DNA of 34,885 nucleotides from Haloferax larsenii JCM 13917. GTDB lineage: Archaea > Halobacteriota > Halobacteria > Halobacteriales > Haloferacaceae. The stretch covers positions 244,039 through 278,923 of the forward strand of contig NZ_AOLI01000006.1 of assembly GCF_000336955.1 (NCBI RefSeq), in the 5' to 3' direction. The notes beneath the pieces are model-generated. The model was not told where the DNA came from and made no database searches. It was given only the letters and a program-made list of their open reading frames with translations. A program made the position numbers and the translations under genes. Positions 1-9,026 of the stretch are shown piece by piece (positions within the stretch are counted from its first letter, which is position 1; the number at the start of each line of letters is the position of its first letter).

Positions 1-610
1 AGCGGTCTCTCGGTAGATTAATCTCTCGGACGGATTCGTCGAAATTTCTCCTTTCGATAACGAATCGATAGATATTGCTCGATAAATTCGCGCACCACAA
101 TCTGATTTCGCCCCTCTCATCTTCGGCGTGAACAAACTCTCGAACAATTATCGACCCGCTTACTTCGAGAGCGAGTTCGTGACGAACGCGACTTGCGGGA
201 CATCGAGAATCATTTCTAAAGGTATCCTCTGCAATTCACGAAAGTTGGACGAGCGTGAAATTTATATTCTCAGACCACTAGTATACGTACTGGAGCGCGA
301 CTCGCGCGTCGGGTGTTATTTTGGCCCGGGACAGGGAGTCCACGAGTCACCCAGCCGGAGGCGCGCTCAGGAGTCACGTATACAGCGGCCACGAGTCCTC
401 ACGAGGACACTGGTTCGCTGTGGTGGTGGTACGGTGGCTCTCGAACCTTCCAGACGACCACTTCACTATTGGTGGGGCGGTCAGTTGCCATCCAGCATTG
501 GTGTTGCAGCCAACGGCGTCCCCTCGCTTCGGTCCTCAGTCGCGGTCTGATTGTCCTCGCGTGCGATGCCCTCCTCGAAGCGCCCCGGTGGATGGGTTTC
601 CGGGGCGTAA
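1..610. other. gene-poor AT-richer leading region
   Basis: No reading frame here has the acidic composition and third-position GC bias of the other genes in the window. The first 300 bases are visibly richer in A and T than the rest. A TATA-like run lies at 259-270 and a second TTATTTTGG-like run at about 315-323, but no convincing ORF follows either. A 6-bp perfect hairpin (GTCCTC, AC, GAGGAC) is at 395-408. It could be the upstream regulatory region of a gene beyond the left edge, a small non-coding RNA locus, or decayed sequence; I cannot tell which. Confidence 0.5.
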
Positions 611-1861: not shown

Positions 1862-2428
1862 ATGGACCAGTTGCGTCAGTCCCTTCTCGACGCGCCGATC
1901 ATCGAAAAAGGCGATTACGAGTACTTCGTGCATCCCATCAGCGACGGGGTTCCGATGCTCAAGCCCGGGCTCCTCCGTGAAATCGTCATCAAGATCATCC
2001 GCAAGGCCAACCTCGAAGACGTCGACAAAATCGTCACGCCCGCAGCGATGGGGATTCACATCTCCACCGCCGTGTCGCTCATGACCGACATTCCGCTCGT
2101 CGTCATCCGAAAGCGCGAGTACGGTCTCGACGGTGAGGTCTCGCTCCACCAGCAGACCGGGTACTCCGAGGGCGACATGTTCATCAACGACGTCAACGAG
2201 GGCGACCGCGTCCTCGTCCTCGACGACGTGCTCTCGACGGGTGGCACGATGAAGGCCGTCCTCGACGCGCTCGACCACATCGGTGCGGACGTCGTCGACA
2301 CCGTGGCAATCATCAAGAAGGCCGGGCCGAACGAACTCGACGACTCCGGCCACCACGTCAAGACGCTCATCAACGTCACCGTCGAAGACGGCGAAGTCGT
2401 CATCGTCGACCAACACGGCGACGACTGA
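1862..2428 (+). CDS. hpt: hypoxanthine/guanine phosphoribosyltransferase family protein
   Basis: A 188-residue purine salvage enzyme of the type I phosphoribosyltransferase fold. It would transfer the phosphoribosyl group of PRPP to hypoxanthine and guanine, or to adenine if it has APRT-like specificity. The PRPP loop is clear: [13 protein letters not shown] at about residues 117-129. Upstream, [17 protein letters not shown] and [12 protein letters not shown] fit the archaeal HPRT/APRT-like group. The open frame continues upstream to 1736, but the TATA box at 1831-1840 lies inside that extension, so ATG 1862 is preferred. It appears monocistronic, with a short T-run after the stop. Haloarchaea carry more than one HGPRTase-like paralogue, so the exact base used is uncertain. 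Confidence 0.85.
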
Positions 2429-2629: not shown

Positions 2630-4501
2630 ATGGCATCACGTAACAATGTCAATCTAGATAGACGGTCACTCCTTCGGACGCTTGGTGCGGGTGGAATTGT
2701 CGGTCTTGCAGGATGTACTGGTGGGAACGACGACACCACGACCACCGCTGGCGACGGCGGTGGCGGTGGTGGCGGCGATTCGACCGCGACGCCCGCCGAG
2801 GACCTCGGTGACACCTTGGTCGGACCCGACGGCGAACAGGTCTCGCTGAGCATGGTCTACAGCACGGGCAGCGAGACGACCAAGACCATCGCCCAGTTCA
2901 TGAAACAGGAGTACGGGAAGATGGGAATCGGTGTCGAGTTGACGGGTGTTCCGTTCAACACGATGCTGTCGAAGTACGCCCAGAACACGTACAAACCCGA
3001 AGACGGCGAGGAACGCTCTTCGTTCAACGCCGGCCCGCGCGACGAGGCCACGAGCCAAGAGCAGTGGGACCTCATGCTCGGCATCGGCTTCAACTCCTAT
3101 CCCCGAACGCCGACCTCGATTCGACCCTTCTGGACGAGCGAGAAGAAGCGAAAACAGTCTACGGTCAACTTCTACGGCTATCGCCCGAGCGAGGACATCG
3201 CGGGCATGCTCGACGAAGCATCCCAGGAGACTGACGAGGCAAAGCGTCAGGAACTCCTCGCCAATGTCTTCGGCGTCCTCAGCCACGACCAACCGGTGAA
3301 CTTCTACGAGTTCTCCGTGGACCTCAACGGCTTCCAGAAGGACGTGCAGGGTATCAAACCCGGTCAAAGCATCGGATACAATTACCAGCAGTACTTCCGT
3401 GGCGAATCCGGTGGCTCGGCGACGATGTCCGGCGGCTACAGTTACGGTGCGGGTACGGACGCCAAGACGCTCAACCCGATTCGCATCAACGACGAGTCGT
3501 CTTCGGACCGTCTCGGGCTCACGCTCGACGGAGCGTACTCGTTCGACAACAACAACGAAGTCGTCTACCGATGGGTCGAGTCCATCGACACCGACGACAA
3601 GCAGAACTACGAGTTCACCCTCCGCGACAACCTCCAGTGGGGTGGCGACTACGGCCAGATGACCGCCGACGACTGGGTGTACTACATCAAGGAAGTCCAT
3701 CAGGCCGAGGACAACTGGGCGGGCGACGTGAACCAGTCCAAATGGTTCCGTGGCGAAGAGCCAATCCCGGTCGAGAAGACGGGGAAACTGAGCTTCGAAA
3801 TCCAGCTCCCCGAAGTCGACCCGGCGTTCATCAAGAAACCCATCATGTGGGGTGCGATGTGCCTGCCGAAGGGTCTCGTCGAGGAGTACCGCGACATGGA
3901 CGACGGCGGCAACAAACTCAACCAATCGACGGCGATTCAGGAGATTACTTACTCCGGCAACCTCGGACCGTACACCTTCGAGCGCTGGGACCGAGAGTCC
4001 GTGTTCGTCGCCAAGCGCAACGAGGACTACTACCTCCGCGACGTCGAGGGCTACGACGGCACGCCAAACTTCGAGGAGTACAAGTACCAAGTGTTCGGCG
4101 AGCAGTCGACTCGACTGTCGGCGTTCGAGACTGGCGAAATCGACCAGTTGATGCTCCCCTCCTCGAAGGCGAAGAAGTTCGAAGACCTCTCGTCGACGAA
4201 GGTCATCCAGACGCCCAACGCGTTCTGTTCGATTCTCGCGTACAACCAGCGCGCCAACGGCTGGGACCAACTGCGCACCCGCGAAGTCCGCAAGGCGCTC
4301 TCGCTGGGTGTGAACAAGAAGACCATCGTCGAGAACATCGACCGTGGCTACGCCAAGGTCGCGCACACGCACCAGCCTGAATACTCCGACTGGTTCGACG
4401 ACTCGAAGGTCGAAAAGACCGGCATCGGCGAGAACTACGGCGCTGCGCAAGCCAAACAGATGCTCGCCGACAACCTGTCGGGCGACTACAAATTCGAGTG
4501 A
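2630..4501 (+). CDS. ABC importer substrate-binding lipoprotein, circularly permuted (family 5)
   Basis: A 623-residue extracellular solute-binding lipoprotein of the peptide/nickel (SBP_bac_5) family. It has a twin-arginine signal (RR at 11-12), a lipobox LAGC with the lipidated Cys29, and a Thr/Gly/Asp-rich linker (30-62). The order of the body is unusual. Residues about 65-255 match what is normally the C-terminal third of DppA/OppA (PDGEQVSLSMVYS, a lobe with Q-Y-G-K-M-G-I-G-V-E-L, then ETDEAKRQELL and FQKDVQGIKPG). Residues 268-623 match the normal N-terminal two thirds (AGTDAKTLNP, YEFTLRDNLQW, MTADDWVYY, GPYTFERW, VRKALSLGVNKKTIVENI, AKQMLADN). The protein ends just where the first block would normally continue. 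It is the first gene of the operon; the likely ligand is a peptide, by family only. Confidence 0.88.
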   Translation: MASRNNVNLDRRSLLRTLGAGGIVGLAGCTGGNDDTTTTAGDGGGGGGGDSTATPAEDLGDTLVGPDGEQVSLSMVYSTGSETTKTIAQFMKQEYGKMGIGVELTGVPFNTMLSKYAQNTYKPEDGEERSSFNAGPRDEATSQEQWDLMLGIGFNSYPRTPTSIRPFWTSEKKRKQSTVNFYGYRPSEDIAGMLDEASQETDEAKRQELLANVFGVLSHDQPVNFYEFSVDLNGFQKDVQGIKPGQSIGYNYQQYFRGESGGSATMSGGYSYGAGTDAKTLNPIRINDESSSDRLGLTLDGAYSFDNNNEVVYRWVESIDTDDKQNYEFTLRDNLQWGGDYGQMTADDWVYYIKEVHQAEDNWAGDVNQSKWFRGEEPIPVEKTGKLSFEIQLPEVDPAFIKKPIMWGAMCLPKGLVEEYRDMDDGGNKLNQSTAIQEITYSGNLGPYTFERWDRESVFVAKRNEDYYLRDVEGYDGTPNFEEYKYQVFGEQSTRLSAFETGEIDQLMLPSSKAKKFEDLSSTKVIQTPNAFCSILAYNQRANGWDQLRTREVRKALSLGVNKKTIVENIDRGYAKVAHTHQPEYSDWFDDSKVEKTGIGENYGAAQAKQMLADNLSGDYKFE

Positions 4502-4505
4502 ATCT

Positions 4506-4510
4506 GGAGG
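4506..4510 (+). promoter_or_regulatory. Shine-Dalgarno of first permease
   Basis: GGAGG sits 7 bases before ATG 4518, in the 16-base gap after the binding-protein stop. It decides the start of the permease gene within a frame that is open far upstream. Confidence 0.6.
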
Positions 4511-4517
4511 GTCCCCG

Positions 4518-5492
4518 ATGAGCATGCATTGGTACGTCGCTCGCCGCGTCGCGTGGGCAGTGATTGCGACGTATCTCATCTTGAGTATCACCTTTGGCCT
4601 CCTTGCCGTCGCTCCCGGTGACGGCCAGACGGCCTTCGCGTTCAAAGCCGCGACCCAAGGTGGCGACGTGGACGAGGCACAGGAGACGTTCGACGAGATT
4701 ACCGGCCGCGACGAACCGCTGTTGACCCGGTACAAGAACTACATGGTGAACATGGCGACGCTCAACTGGGGGTGGTCGTTCACGCGGAACCAACCGGTGT
4801 TAGACGCCATCGCCCAGGCGTACCCCTACTCGTTGATGTACGCCGTTCCAGCGACGCTTATCTCCATCATCGCCGGGTACGCAATCGGGCTGTATTCGGC
4901 GACTCACCAGTACACGCTGACCGACTACTTCGGGACGTTCACAGCCTTCTTCGGCATCAGCATCCCGAACTTCTGGTTCGGTATCATGTTGATACTGGTG
5001 TTCGCCGTGGACTTGGGGTGGTTACCCAGTTACTACCAAACAGGACGGGGTGTCTGGACGGTTGCGAACGCCAAGCAACTCATCTTGCCAATCATCGTCC
5101 TCTCGACTGGAGCCATCGCCGGCAACATGCGCTACTCCCGCGCTGAGGCGCTGGAGTACGTCCACGCCGACTTCGTGAAGACGGCGCGGGCGAAGGGCGC
5201 AGACGACTGGCGCGTCCTCGTCCGGCACATCTTCAGACCGGCGCTCGTGCCGCTCATGACCATCTTGGTCGCCGACATCCTCGGCCTGCTGTTCGCCGGG
5301 GCGTACATCACGGAGGTGGTCTTCCAGATTCCCGGTCTCGGGCTGTTGAGTTACAAAGCGATTATCCAACAGGACACGGCGCTCGTCATGGCGACGACGC
5401 TCATCCCGGTGTTCATCGCAATCATCGGGAATCTCGTCCAAGACATCGCCTACACCGTGTTGGACCCGCGAATCAGCTACGGTGACCGATAA
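4518..5492 (+). CDS. dppB: ABC importer permease, DppB type
   Basis: A 324-residue inner-membrane permease of the peptide/nickel transporter family. It has a first membrane helix at about 10-33 (VAWAVIATYLILSITFGLL), a long extracytoplasmic loop, and five further helices. The EAA loop that contacts the ATPases is EALEYVHADFVKTARAKGAD. The C-terminal motif IPGLGLLSYKAI...D is typical of DppB. Start ATG 4518 follows a GGAGG; Met at 4524 is a second option. Its stop overlaps the next start by one base (TAATG, 5490-5494). With the DppC-type partner it should form the translocation pore for the ligand delivered by the upstream lipoprotein. Confidence 0.9.
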   Translation: MSMHWYVARRVAWAVIATYLILSITFGLLAVAPGDGQTAFAFKAATQGGDVDEAQETFDEITGRDEPLLTRYKNYMVNMATLNWGWSFTRNQPVLDAIAQAYPYSLMYAVPATLISIIAGYAIGLYSATHQYTLTDYFGTFTAFFGISIPNFWFGIMLILVFAVDLGWLPSYYQTGRGVWTVANAKQLILPIIVLSTGAIAGNMRYSRAEALEYVHADFVKTARAKGADDWRVLVRHIFRPALVPLMTILVADILGLLFAGAYITEVVFQIPGLGLLSYKAIIQQDTALVMATTLIPVFIAIIGNLVQDIAYTVLDPRISYGDR

Positions 5493-6649
5493 TGGCGGCC
5501 GATACGCGCTCCGAGACGGCCGCAACCGAGCGATTCGAGGATGTTGACTGGGACGACGTCGGCGGACTCGGCTTCCCCCGGCGGACGCTGGCACTCGGTG
5601 TCTCTTCGTTGGCGTACCTCGTCGCAGTCGTCTACGACGTGTTCCTTACCGAGGATGCACTCGTCTCGGGGACGAACTGGCTGTTCCTCCTCACGCTCCT
5701 CGCGGGCGTGTTCTTCGTGGCGTGGCCGCTCGCCGAAAACCGCCGTCTGACGGCGTACTACTGGCGGCGATTCAAGAAGAACCGCGCTGCGGTCATCAGC
5801 GCCATCTACCTGCTCGTGGTGTTCGTCCTCGGGACGTTCGGGCCGATGCTCATCGCGAAACCCGAGTTGAACGTCCTCGCGGCGTATCAACCGCCGGTGT
5901 TCCTCAGCGTCGACTCCAGCGTCCCCACGAGTTGTGTCGGACAGGCCGCAGACGGACTGTGTCACGGAACGTGGAAGTACCCACTCGGGACGACCAGCGA
6001 CGGGAAAGGCATCGCCAGACTCGTCGTCTTCGGCATGCGCGTGAGCATGCAAGTCGGTCTCATCACCATGCTCATCGTCATCAGCATCGGGACCGTCGTC
6101 GGCACGTCGGCGGCGTACTTCTCCGGTCTCGTCGACGAACTGCTGATGCGCTACGTCGACATCCAGCAGACGTTCCCGACGTTCTTCCTGTTCCTCATCG
6201 TGACCTACCTGTTCAAGCCGAGTCTGTTCTTACTCATCACGATTTTCGGCTTCCTCGGGTGGGGTGGTATCGCCCGACTGGTTCGCTCCGAAGCGCTCCA
6301 GCGACGCGAAGAATCGTACATTCAGGCCGCCGAAAACGCCGGGGCCTCGGACGGATGGATAATCCGCCGACACCTGATGCCGAACGTGTCGAACACGGTC
6401 ATCACGGCCGCGACGCTTCTCATCCCGTCCTTTATCCTGTTCGAAGCGACGTTCGCGTTCCTCGGACTGACCGACCCCTCGACGCCGTCGTGGGGGCAGG
6501 TCATCTCCTCAGGCCGCGGCGACCTCGACAGCGCGTGGTGGATTGCGACCATCCCCGGCGTGTTCCTGTTTTTCACCGTGCTGGCGTTCAACTTCGTCGG
6601 CGACGCGTTGCGTGACGCGCTCGACCCACGCTCGGAGGGAGATGCATGA
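5492..6649 (+). CDS. dppC: ABC importer permease, DppC type, N-terminally extended
   Basis: A 385-residue permease, longer than usual DppC proteins (about 300). The extra N-terminal part has two additional membrane segments (about 32-50 and 63-81) before the normal first segment that follows [13 protein letters not shown] second oddity is the extracytoplasmic loop after that helix, which is lengthened and holds two cysteines ([15 protein letters not shown]) just before [12 protein letters not shown], the counterpart of the usual HPLGTD-GRD motif. They could form a disulphide outside the cell (inference). The EAA loop is [20 protein letters not shown]. It overlaps dppB by one base and the next gene by four (ATGA). 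Confidence 0.9.
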
Positions 6650-7725
6650 CTGACCCACTTCTGTCTATCCGCGACCTGCACGTCCAGTTCAACACCGACG
6701 AAGGCACTGTTCGCGCCGTCGACGGCGTCTCCTTCGACGTCGCGCGCGGCGAGACGGTGTGTGTCGTCGGTGAGTCCGGGTCGGGGAAGACGGTCGCCTG
6801 CGAGTCCATCACGAAACTCATCCCGATGCCGCCGGGAGAAATCGCCGGCGGCGAGATTCTGTTCGACGGCGAAGACCTCACCGAGACGTCCGAAAAGCGC
6901 CTCGAAGACATTCGTGGCGGCCGAATCGCCCACGTCTTCCAGAATCCGCAGAGCGCGCTCAACCCGGTCTACCCGGTCGGGGCGCAAATCGTCGAAGCGA
7001 TTCGTCTCCACAGAGACGTGTCGAAAGAGGCAGCGCGCGACCGCGCTATCGACCTCCTCGACCGCGTCGGCATCCCGGAGGCGACCGCCCGCATCGACGA
7101 CTACCCCCACGAGTTCTCCGGCGGCATGAAACAGCGCGTGGTCATCGCCATGGCGCTGGCTGCCGACCCGGACCTCCTCATCGCCGACGAACCGACGACG
7201 GCGCTCGACGTGACGATTCAAGCGCAGATTCTCCGACTCCTCCGCGACCTGCAAGACGAGTTCGGAATGAGTATCGTCTTCGTCACCCACGACCTCGGCG
7301 TCGTCGCCGAAATCGCGGACCGAGTCGTCGTCATGTACTCGGGGAAGGTGATGGAGACCGGCCCCGTCTACGACGTGTTCGAACAGCCGTCGCACCCGTA
7401 CACGAAAGCTCTACTCGGGTGTCTCCCCGGACAGGGGAAGTCGATGGAACCCATCGGCGGCACGCTCCCCGACCCGAAGAACCCGCCCGCGGGGTGCCGA
7501 TTCCATCCGCGGTGTCCGCACGCGACTGCCGACTGTCGCACGGGCGACCATCCGGAACCGCTCGACGTGGGGACCGACCACGAAGCCGCCTGTGTGTACT
7601 ACGGTCCGGGATACGATGCCTCGGTCATCCAGAGCGACGCTGTCTCGGAGTCGACTGCGACCGATGGGGGTTCCGAGGGCGGAACGCCCGCAGACGCGAG
7701 CGAATCCGGAGGTGACGACCGATGA
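6646..7725 (+). CDS. dppD: ABC importer ATP-binding protein, DppD type
   Basis: A 359-residue cytoplasmic ATPase. All nucleotide-binding motifs are present: Walker A GESGSGKT (42-49), Q-loop Q99, signature FSGGM (157-161), Walker B LLIADE (177-182) and switch His215. The C-terminal oligopeptide-transporter extension has the usual four-cysteine cluster (C284, C290, C297, C316) seen in DppD/OppD proteins. A low-complexity acidic and serine-rich tail follows. Start and stop both overlap neighbours by ATGA, so the operon is translationally coupled. It should pair with the next ATPase as a heterodimer. Confidence 0.92.
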
Positions 7726-9026
7726 GTTCTGACCCACTGCTGTCGGTTCGCGGACTCAAGAAGCACTACCCGATTACAGAGGGCGTCCTCAAGAAGGAAG
7801 TCGGCCGGGTGAAAGCGGTCGACGGCATCTCCTTCGACGTCGAATCTGGCGAGACGCTCGGACTGGTCGGCGAGTCCGGCTGTGGCAAGTCCACGGCCGC
7901 GACGTCGCTCCTTCGGTTAGAGGACCCGACAGACGGCGATATCGTCTTCGACGGCGAGGACATCACCGAGTTCGACGACACGCGACTGAAGTCCTTCCGC
8001 CGACGGGCGCAGATGATGTTCCAAGACCCGTCGTCGAGTTTCGACCCGCGGATGAGCGTCGGCGAGTCGGTCGCCGAACCGCTCGAAATCCACGGGATGC
8101 GCGACCGAAGTCGTCGCCGTCGCATCGTCGAGAACCTGCTCGAACGCGTCGGACTATCGGCGTCGGACTTCGACCGCTACCCACACGAGTTCTCCGGCGG
8201 GCAGAAACAGCGCATCGCCCTCGCGCGGGCGCTGGTCCTCAATCCGGACATCATCGTCGCCGACGAGCCGGTCTCCGCGCTGGACGTGTCCATCCAGGCC
8301 GAGATTATCTCGCTGATGCGCGACTTGCAAGACGAGTTCGACCTCGCTATCGTGTTCATCAGCCACGACCTCGGTGTAGTCCGCGAGGTGTGCGACCGCG
8401 TGGCCGTGATGTACCTCGGCGAAATCGTCGAGGTTGCGGACACGGAGACGCTGTTCACCGACCCGCAACATCCCTACACGCGCGCACTCCTCTCGTCGAT
8501 TCCGACGCCGGACCCGACCCGCCGCAACGAGCAGATAGAACTCACCGGCGACGTGCCGAGTCCGTCGAATCCGCCGTCTGGCTGCCGGTTCCACACGCGC
8601 TGTCCCGAGGTCATCCCACCCGCGGAGTTCGACCTCGACCAAGACGAGTGGCGGCACGTCCTCGACCTGCGACTCCGCGTCGATAGCGGTCTCGATGTCG
8701 AAGACGTGCGTTCGTTCCTCGTCGCCGAGGGGGTCGCAAACGACACGGAGGCCGTTCCCGACGACGCCGTCAAGCGCGAACTCCGACGCGAGTTCGACAT
8801 CCCCGAGACGCTCTCGGACGCGGCGGCAGAAACAGTCCTTTCGGAAGGCCTCGACGCACTCGTCTCCGGCGACCACGACCACGCGAGACGGACACTCGAC
8901 GAAGCGTTTAGCACCGTGTGCGAACGGGACGCCCCCGCCCTCGAAACGTCGGAGCGAGGGTCGACCGCCGCTTGTCACCTCGTCGATGAGAGCGTGACTG
9001 TCGAATCGCCCGTAAGCGACGACTAA
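7722..9026 (+). CDS. dppF: ABC importer ATP-binding protein, DppF type, with inserted domain
   Basis: A 434-residue ATPase, about 100 longer than usual. Walker A GESGCGKST (50-58), Q101, signature FSGGQ (157-161), Walker B IIVADE (177-182) and His215 are intact. The C-terminal four-cysteine cluster is split: C288 and C294 come in GCRFHTRCP, then about 105 acidic, helical residues (295-399) intervene before C400 and C418 (TVCERDAPAL, AACHLV). The inserted part (DQDEWRHVLDLRLRVDSG, VKRELRREFDIPETL, VLSEGLDALVSGDHDHARRTLDEAF) resembles similar insertions I associate with haloarchaeal DppF proteins. This is the last gene of the operon and overlaps dppD by ATGA. Confidence 0.9.
   Translation: MSSDPLLSVRGLKKHYPITEGVLKKEVGRVKAVDGISFDVESGETLGLVGESGCGKSTAATSLLRLEDPTDGDIVFDGEDITEFDDTRLKSFRRRAQMMFQDPSSSFDPRMSVGESVAEPLEIHGMRDRSRRRRIVENLLERVGLSASDFDRYPHEFSGGQKQRIALARALVLNPDIIVADEPVSALDVSIQAEIISLMRDLQDEFDLAIVFISHDLGVVREVCDRVAVMYLGEIVEVADTETLFTDPQHPYTRALLSSIPTPDPTRRNEQIELTGDVPSPSNPPSGCRFHTRCPEVIPPAEFDLDQDEWRHVLDLRLRVDSGLDVEDVRSFLVAEGVANDTEAVPDDAVKRELRREFDIPETLSDAAAETVLSEGLDALVSGDHDHARRTLDEAFSTVCERDAPALETSERGSTAACHLVDESVTVESPVSDD

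Follow-up and report, generated by a model that had tools for sequence, protein, structure and literature searches.

Few transport receptors have been studied as much as the solute-binding proteins (SBPs) of family 5. Representatives of this family (cluster C) include AppA (1xoc), DppA (1dpp), OppA (1ola) and CtaP (5isu). In the structure of the DppABCDF complex, the scoop motif of DppB is positioned between the two lobes of DppA (PMC12136057). Natural permutation of an SBP is already known from cluster B, in the form of Treponema pallidum Tp0684 (MglB-2), a circularly permuted glucose-binding lipoprotein for which a 'cluster Bc' has been proposed and whose authors put forward the idea of tether relocation for tethered SBPs (PMC4990184). 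Tp0684 is the only natural permuted SBP that we found in the literature searched. A permuted family-5 class, by contrast, is unreported in the open-access full-text literature (subscription papers and preprints were outside the scope of this search) and is absent from the Pfam and NCBIfam models. One mention of PF00496, in a published table of domain versatility, was unrelated to permutation.

Here we analyse an SBP gene of Haloferax larsenii JCM 13917 that lies in a window of 34,885 nucleotides, by which we mean the whole stretch of DNA under study (Table 1). Although there are no wet-lab data and the fold is predicted, we consider it very probable that the best explanation of this gene is a circularly permuted, lipid-anchored receptor of an Opp/Dpp-type importer, with the ordinary fold and an arrangement that has arisen repeatedly. 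The protein is homologous to AppA, DppA, OppA and CtaP over both of its blocks, its predicted fold matches theirs, and its operon likewise encodes Opp/Dpp-type permeases and oligo_HPY ATPases, but it carries its C-terminal third first and, by inference, has its termini on lobe 2. Tp0684 resembles it as a tethered ABC SBP that has undergone circular permutation in nature and keeps the two-lobed fold, and differs in being a type I, cluster B sugar receptor that is broken at another place (PMC4990184). The permuted part of Tp0684 is, moreover, poorly conserved and may derive from another gene (PMC4990184), whereas both blocks of the window protein trace to one gene. The subfamily also has native-order relatives, with 32-51% identity over block B, that are encoded at the equivalent operon position in Halomarina oriensis, Natrialba (two loci), Halobellus and Halorubrum alkaliphilum; unlike the window protein, they give a single colinear profile match.

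Table 1. Features of the permuted SBP gene and its neighbours, in window coordinates
Feature	Position	Strand	Extent and basis
Hypoxanthine/guanine phosphoribosyltransferase (HPT), upstream neighbour	1862..2428	+	NF040646 above cut-off; synteny
Circularly permuted SBP_bac_5 solute-binding lipoprotein gene	2630..4501	+	623 aa; ORF, Pfam and native-only profile matches
Tat-type signal (DRRSLL) and lipobox LAGC (Cys30)	2630..2719	+	Residues 1-30; sequence; native-profile positions 3-52 match
Flexible Gly/Asp/Thr tether	2720..2806	+	Residues 31-59; sequence
Block A, native C-terminal third	2807..3391	+	Residues 60-254; native-profile 381-538; structure, 1xoc 350..514
New junction FRGESGGSA	3392..3418	+	Residues 255-263; sequence; dN/dS <0.25 across junction
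Block B, native N-terminal two-thirds	3419..4498	+	Residues 264-623; native-profile 45-378; structure, 1xoc 17..356
Permease 1 (BPD_transp_1, OppB-like)	4518..5492	+
Permease 2 (OppC_N + BPD_transp_1)	5492..6649	+
ATPase 1 (ABC_tran + oligo_HPY, OppD/DppD-like)	6646..7725	+
ATPase 2 (ABC_tran + oligo_HPY, OppF/DppF-like)	7722..9026	+

Reversed order of two complementary blocks

A sequence-only reading of this DNA had proposed that the domain order of the protein is reversed by a circular permutation, with the cut placed within a loop and the 623-residue frame left intact. The frame contains no internal stop, and both the RR of the Tat-type signal (residues 11-12) and the lipobox (residues 27-30) can be read directly from the sequence. 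Blocks A and B correspond to the C-terminal third and the N-terminal two-thirds, respectively, of SBP_bac_5 family-5 proteins, and the junction between them connects the old C-terminus to the old mature N-terminus. Antisense to the gene there is a 689-residue open frame (window positions 2666-4735, minus strand), which is probably a high-GC artefact.

The whole protein scores 148.7 bits against the Pfam profile SBP_bac_5 (PF00496), above the gathering cut-off of 32.4 bits, and the main stretch of the match (residues 311-614) covers profile positions 2-275 of 368. When the protein's own genome was searched with this profile, positions 288-366 were found at genome coordinates 246878-247186 (25.4 bits), upstream of positions 2-276 at 247598-248512 (128.7 bits) and within the same open reading frame. 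Both ends of the profile are present, the C-terminal part only weakly. Each of the remaining five SBP_bac_5 genes of the genome gives one colinear match (2-366). The canonical order, in which the N-terminal part of the profile precedes the C-terminal part, does not hold for the window protein, and the single colinear match that would have refuted a permutation is absent from this search.

We made a second profile exclusively from native-order SBPs, both haloarchaeal and bacterial. Ordinary members match it in one stretch (for example, 4-541), whereas the window protein matches it in its signal (3-52), then at 381-538 and then at 45-378. The last two segments are complementary, with no loss and no repeat. 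In a sequence search of the PDB, residues 270-597 match the starts of chains, and residues 72-109 and 189-256 match their ends; residue 349 (GDGILDKDGKKFSFTL) of Bacillus subtilis AppA (1xoc) is the counterpart, in the alignment, of the exact new N-terminus, GDTLVGPDGEQVSLSM. Profiles, predicted structure and the AppA alignment all support a circular permutation that was cut within a loop, and the block limits first proposed (about 65-255, then to the stop) are correct to within a few residues. By homology and fold, but not by chain order, the window protein is a member of SBP_bac_5.

The surrounding genes make up an Opp/Dpp-type importer operon, consisting of an SBP, two BPD_transp_1 permeases (one with OppC_N) and two oligo_HPY ATPases, and this set is conserved in relatives. 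The slot is identical in native and permuted lineages, in the order HPT, SBP, permease, permease, ATPase, ATPase. The earlier description of a peptide-type importer holds for the operon type, which the domains of the neighbouring genes support, but a peptide substrate is not established. The protein stays below the NCBIfam equivalog cut-offs for DppA, OppA, NikA and Opp4A alike (the best was Opp4A, with 59.9 bits against 650), and the names DppA or OppA should therefore not be used. An HPT gene immediately before the SBP operon was also seen in Halegenticoccus, Halobellus, Haloplanus, Natronorubrum and one further genome (G185); it may hint at purine-type substrates, but is no more than a hint.

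Predicted fold and inferred position of the lipid anchor

AlphaFold2 prediction for the mature protein (564 residues, 116-row alignment) gave a confident model (pLDDT 95.9, pTM 0.90). Sequential structure alignment placed model residues 204-564 on AppA 17-356 (Z 23.8) and on DppA 1-344 (Z 21.7), and block A folded alone (pLDDT 80) matched AppA 350-514 (Z 9.5) and CtaP 348-517 (Z 10.0). The whole model and the block A model cover complementary halves of 1xoc and 5isu in swapped order. Sequential aligners cannot superpose both blocks together, and the complementarity rests on separate alignments rather than on a joint superposition. The comparison of a predicted structure with DppA-like folds, which had been suggested as a check, thus agrees with the permutation, and the window protein is predicted, in the absence of a solved structure, to have the two-lobed cluster C fold of AppA, DppA and OppA. 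The structure matches listed were all to family-5 cluster C proteins. No cluster B (Tp0684-like) match was among them, which proves nothing by itself. Among the best 60 of 117 PDB chains found with a permuted-order profile there was no permuted family-5 SBP, and block B was at the chain start in all.

Because model residues 204-564 correspond to DppA 1-344 and block A to the remainder of the fold, the new termini can be placed at about residue 344 of DppA, a position within its second lobe. On the basis of the model, the lipid anchor should consequently be on lobe 2. The proposal that the permutation moves the anchor to a different lobe is a fair inference from this position of the termini, although placement of the anchor itself has not been shown.

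In the arrangement that we propose, the signal peptide and lipobox were kept in place, block A came to be first and block B second, a short linker came to connect the old C-terminus with the old mature N-terminus, and the chain was opened in a lobe-2 loop. The most likely fold is the usual two-lobed one of family 5. By inference, the protein would bind its ligand between the lobes, deliver it to the permeases and, together with the permeases and ATPases of its operon, go through the same Venus-flytrap cycle as native SBPs. The main physical change would be that both termini, and hence the lipid tether, are on lobe 2 rather than lobe 1, the position of the tether in the complex again being inferred.

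Conservation and repeated origin of the permuted order

The permuted gene is found in 7 of 15 Haloferax genomes at 84-100% identity, and two of the carriers are H. mucosum and H. marinum. Close homologs, whether native or permuted, are absent from the remaining eight genomes. Chance is excluded because full-length colinear orthologs of the permuted protein occur in six other Haloferax genomes (84-96%). Values of dN/dS for the mature protein are 0.07-0.15 in all pairs tested and remain below 0.25 for block A, block B and the junction, from which we judge the gene to be under purifying selection in all its parts.

The source is a draft genome of 36 contigs, which leaves room for the suspicion that the reversed order is an artefact of assembly or annotation, or that the gene is a decaying pseudogene. 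However, seven Haloferax assemblies, some with few contigs, share both the order and the operon slot, many further distinct proteins have the same order, and every part of the stop-free frame appears to be under purifying selection. An assembly error can therefore be ruled out and the dN/dS values reject a pseudogene, so that we give these readings practically no credence; the assembly rearrangement that might have undone the original claim is not borne out. It is also conceivable that two halves from different neighbouring SBP genes were fused in a new order, since tandem SBP genes exist, for example at Dehalococcoidia loci. Yet the two blocks, treed one at a time, give congruent results, with each permuted clade joining the same native relatives, and the profile segments are exactly complementary. 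We therefore rejected a chimera of two paralogs, which we regard as very improbable.

Among 170 genomes of the family to which Haloferax belongs, permuted members of the subfamily occur in Haloferax, Halegenticoccus, one further genus (G174) and 19 Halorubrum genomes, whereas other Halorubrum species have the subfamily SBP in native order. A 105-member tree of the subfamily requires the permuted state to have changed three times, and starred branches force each of these changes. A single origin within the subfamily is rejected by AU tests, both when Haloferax/Halegenticoccus and the L040/G174 group are constrained to one clade (p = 0.0012) and when all permuted rows are (p = 2.4e-6). The Halorubrum event, moreover, cut at a different site (profile 358/366 versus 378/381).

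Extending the search to 392 genomes of the order with a junction-spanning profile revealed full-length permuted matches in at least about 90 genomes, and the native-only profile verified all permuted matches that were fetched. They include an old, widespread permuted family (L021-like). A separate recent event is represented by L291-L294; their nearest relatives (L295-L310, at 49-52%) without exception have the native order. In total, 136 distinct permuted family-5 proteins were confirmed, mainly haloarchaeal, before four from Alphaproteobacteria were added. A search of haloarchaeal genomes for the same order, proposed in the sequence-only reading, thus found many permuted members and takes the matter beyond that reading: the permutation is recurrent and widespread, not unique to the window protein.

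Nor is it restricted to haloarchaea, a possibility that we rejected. Permuted members were verified in three other archaeal genomes of the phylum and in five of Bacillota, and they are present in the alphaproteobacteria Nitratireductor (WP_113156578.1), Roseomonas (WP_207415789.1), Ketogulonicigenium (WP_013385786.1) and Microvirga. One permuted protein of an archaeon outside the haloarchaea (L333 in G636) lacks a lipobox and ends in a PGF-CTERM-like tail (TPGFGVIAVIAGVMAATYLLRRRR), which would put its anchor at the new C-terminus. Just upstream of the permuted SBP in Roseomonas and Ketogulonicigenium there is a gene for an M28 family peptidase.

An 87-row tree requires 8 changes, of which 6 are forced by starred branches; the corresponding numbers for an earlier tree of 111 rows are 7 and 5. 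These larger trees are 'quick' ones with SH-aLRT support and have long branches, and the starred branches give 5-6 as a lower bound, 7-8 being supported by parsimony only. The trees thus require at least 5-6 independent origins of the permutation among archaeal and bacterial family-5 SBPs. Of the 136 proteins, 109 have an early segment that stops at profile positions 375-389, and 95 have a late segment that begins at 380-389. This clustering indicates that the break is largely restricted to one loop, and the same rearrangement appears to have been repeated at nearly the same place.

The likely route, which is inferred, is tandem duplication of the mature coding part in situ followed by trimming at both ends, and it is the simplest one because the 5' signal stayed in place. 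No duplication intermediate, remnant or duplicated-block ORF was found around 12 permuted loci, although remnants could have been lost. In Dehalococcoidia/Chloroflexi, tandem pairs of native-order SBP genes lie about 1.8 kb apart, an arrangement from which a permutation could arise.

Possible reasons for the recurring break

The repeated use of one loop could reflect no more than tolerance, in that the termini are close together, one loop of lobe 2 can be opened, and duplication-and-trimming events were fixed by drift without functional gain. This would fit the narrow stretch within which the breaks fall in anchored and unanchored proteins alike, the short and variable junction linker, and the operon slot that native and permuted orthologs share in sister lineages. 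However, a minimum of 5-6 origins, of which one is old and extends over two domains, suggests more than rare drift, and other loops expected to tolerate opening are unused. We regard drift at a tolerant loop as an even call.

Alternatively, relocation of the tether may have been selected, if an anchor on lobe 2 improves docking to the permeases or spares lobe 1 strain. Almost all permuted archaeal proteins have a lipobox-like motif ahead of block A (a simple motif picks it up in 122 of 136 overall, and a divergent version is present in several others), the break recurs within the same lobe-2 region, and the PGF-CTERM-like tail of L333 would likewise anchor lobe 2. The authors of the Tp0684 study had the same idea for tethered SBPs (PMC4990184). 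On the other hand, the four alphaproteobacterial proteins have the same break, lack a lipobox and resemble soluble periplasmic proteins, so that relocation of the lipid anchor cannot be the sole reason for the order; in addition, most anchored haloarchaeal SBPs are native (five of the six in the window genome). Selection on the tether is therefore an explanation that we entertain only tentatively, and the data do not decide between it and a tolerated loop. Equally doubtful is the broader proposition that family-5 SBPs have converged repeatedly, under functional selection, on permutation at a single loop of lobe 2. At least six independent events would then have produced an unnamed structural class in two domains, switched the anchor and the folding order between lobes, and altered permease docking.

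Permuted family-5 proteins are at present annotated merely as 'ABC transporter substrate-binding protein', and order-blind annotation mis-scores them, since each resembles half a family member. In sister Halorubrum species, and likewise in Haloferax versus Halobellus, one operon slot holds a native ortholog in one lineage and a permuted ortholog in the other, and a direct test of the place of the tether and of folding order in ABC import is therefore possible. The recurrent rearrangement constitutes a natural experiment on SBP folding, attachment and function, and the recurring break point a natural guide for the engineering of permuted SBP biosensors.

Two further arrangements were seen in Halorubrum. 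A second, different permuted SBP_bac_5 protein (666 residues) is encoded within about 3 kb of the subfamily SBP operon, on the opposite strand (L149:6359-8356 and L168:780-2777). At L168:4000-5187 (G135), a native-order SBP that is open for only 396 residues, with 33 block A positions left, adjoins an intact permuted SBP; a frameshift or decay is possible.
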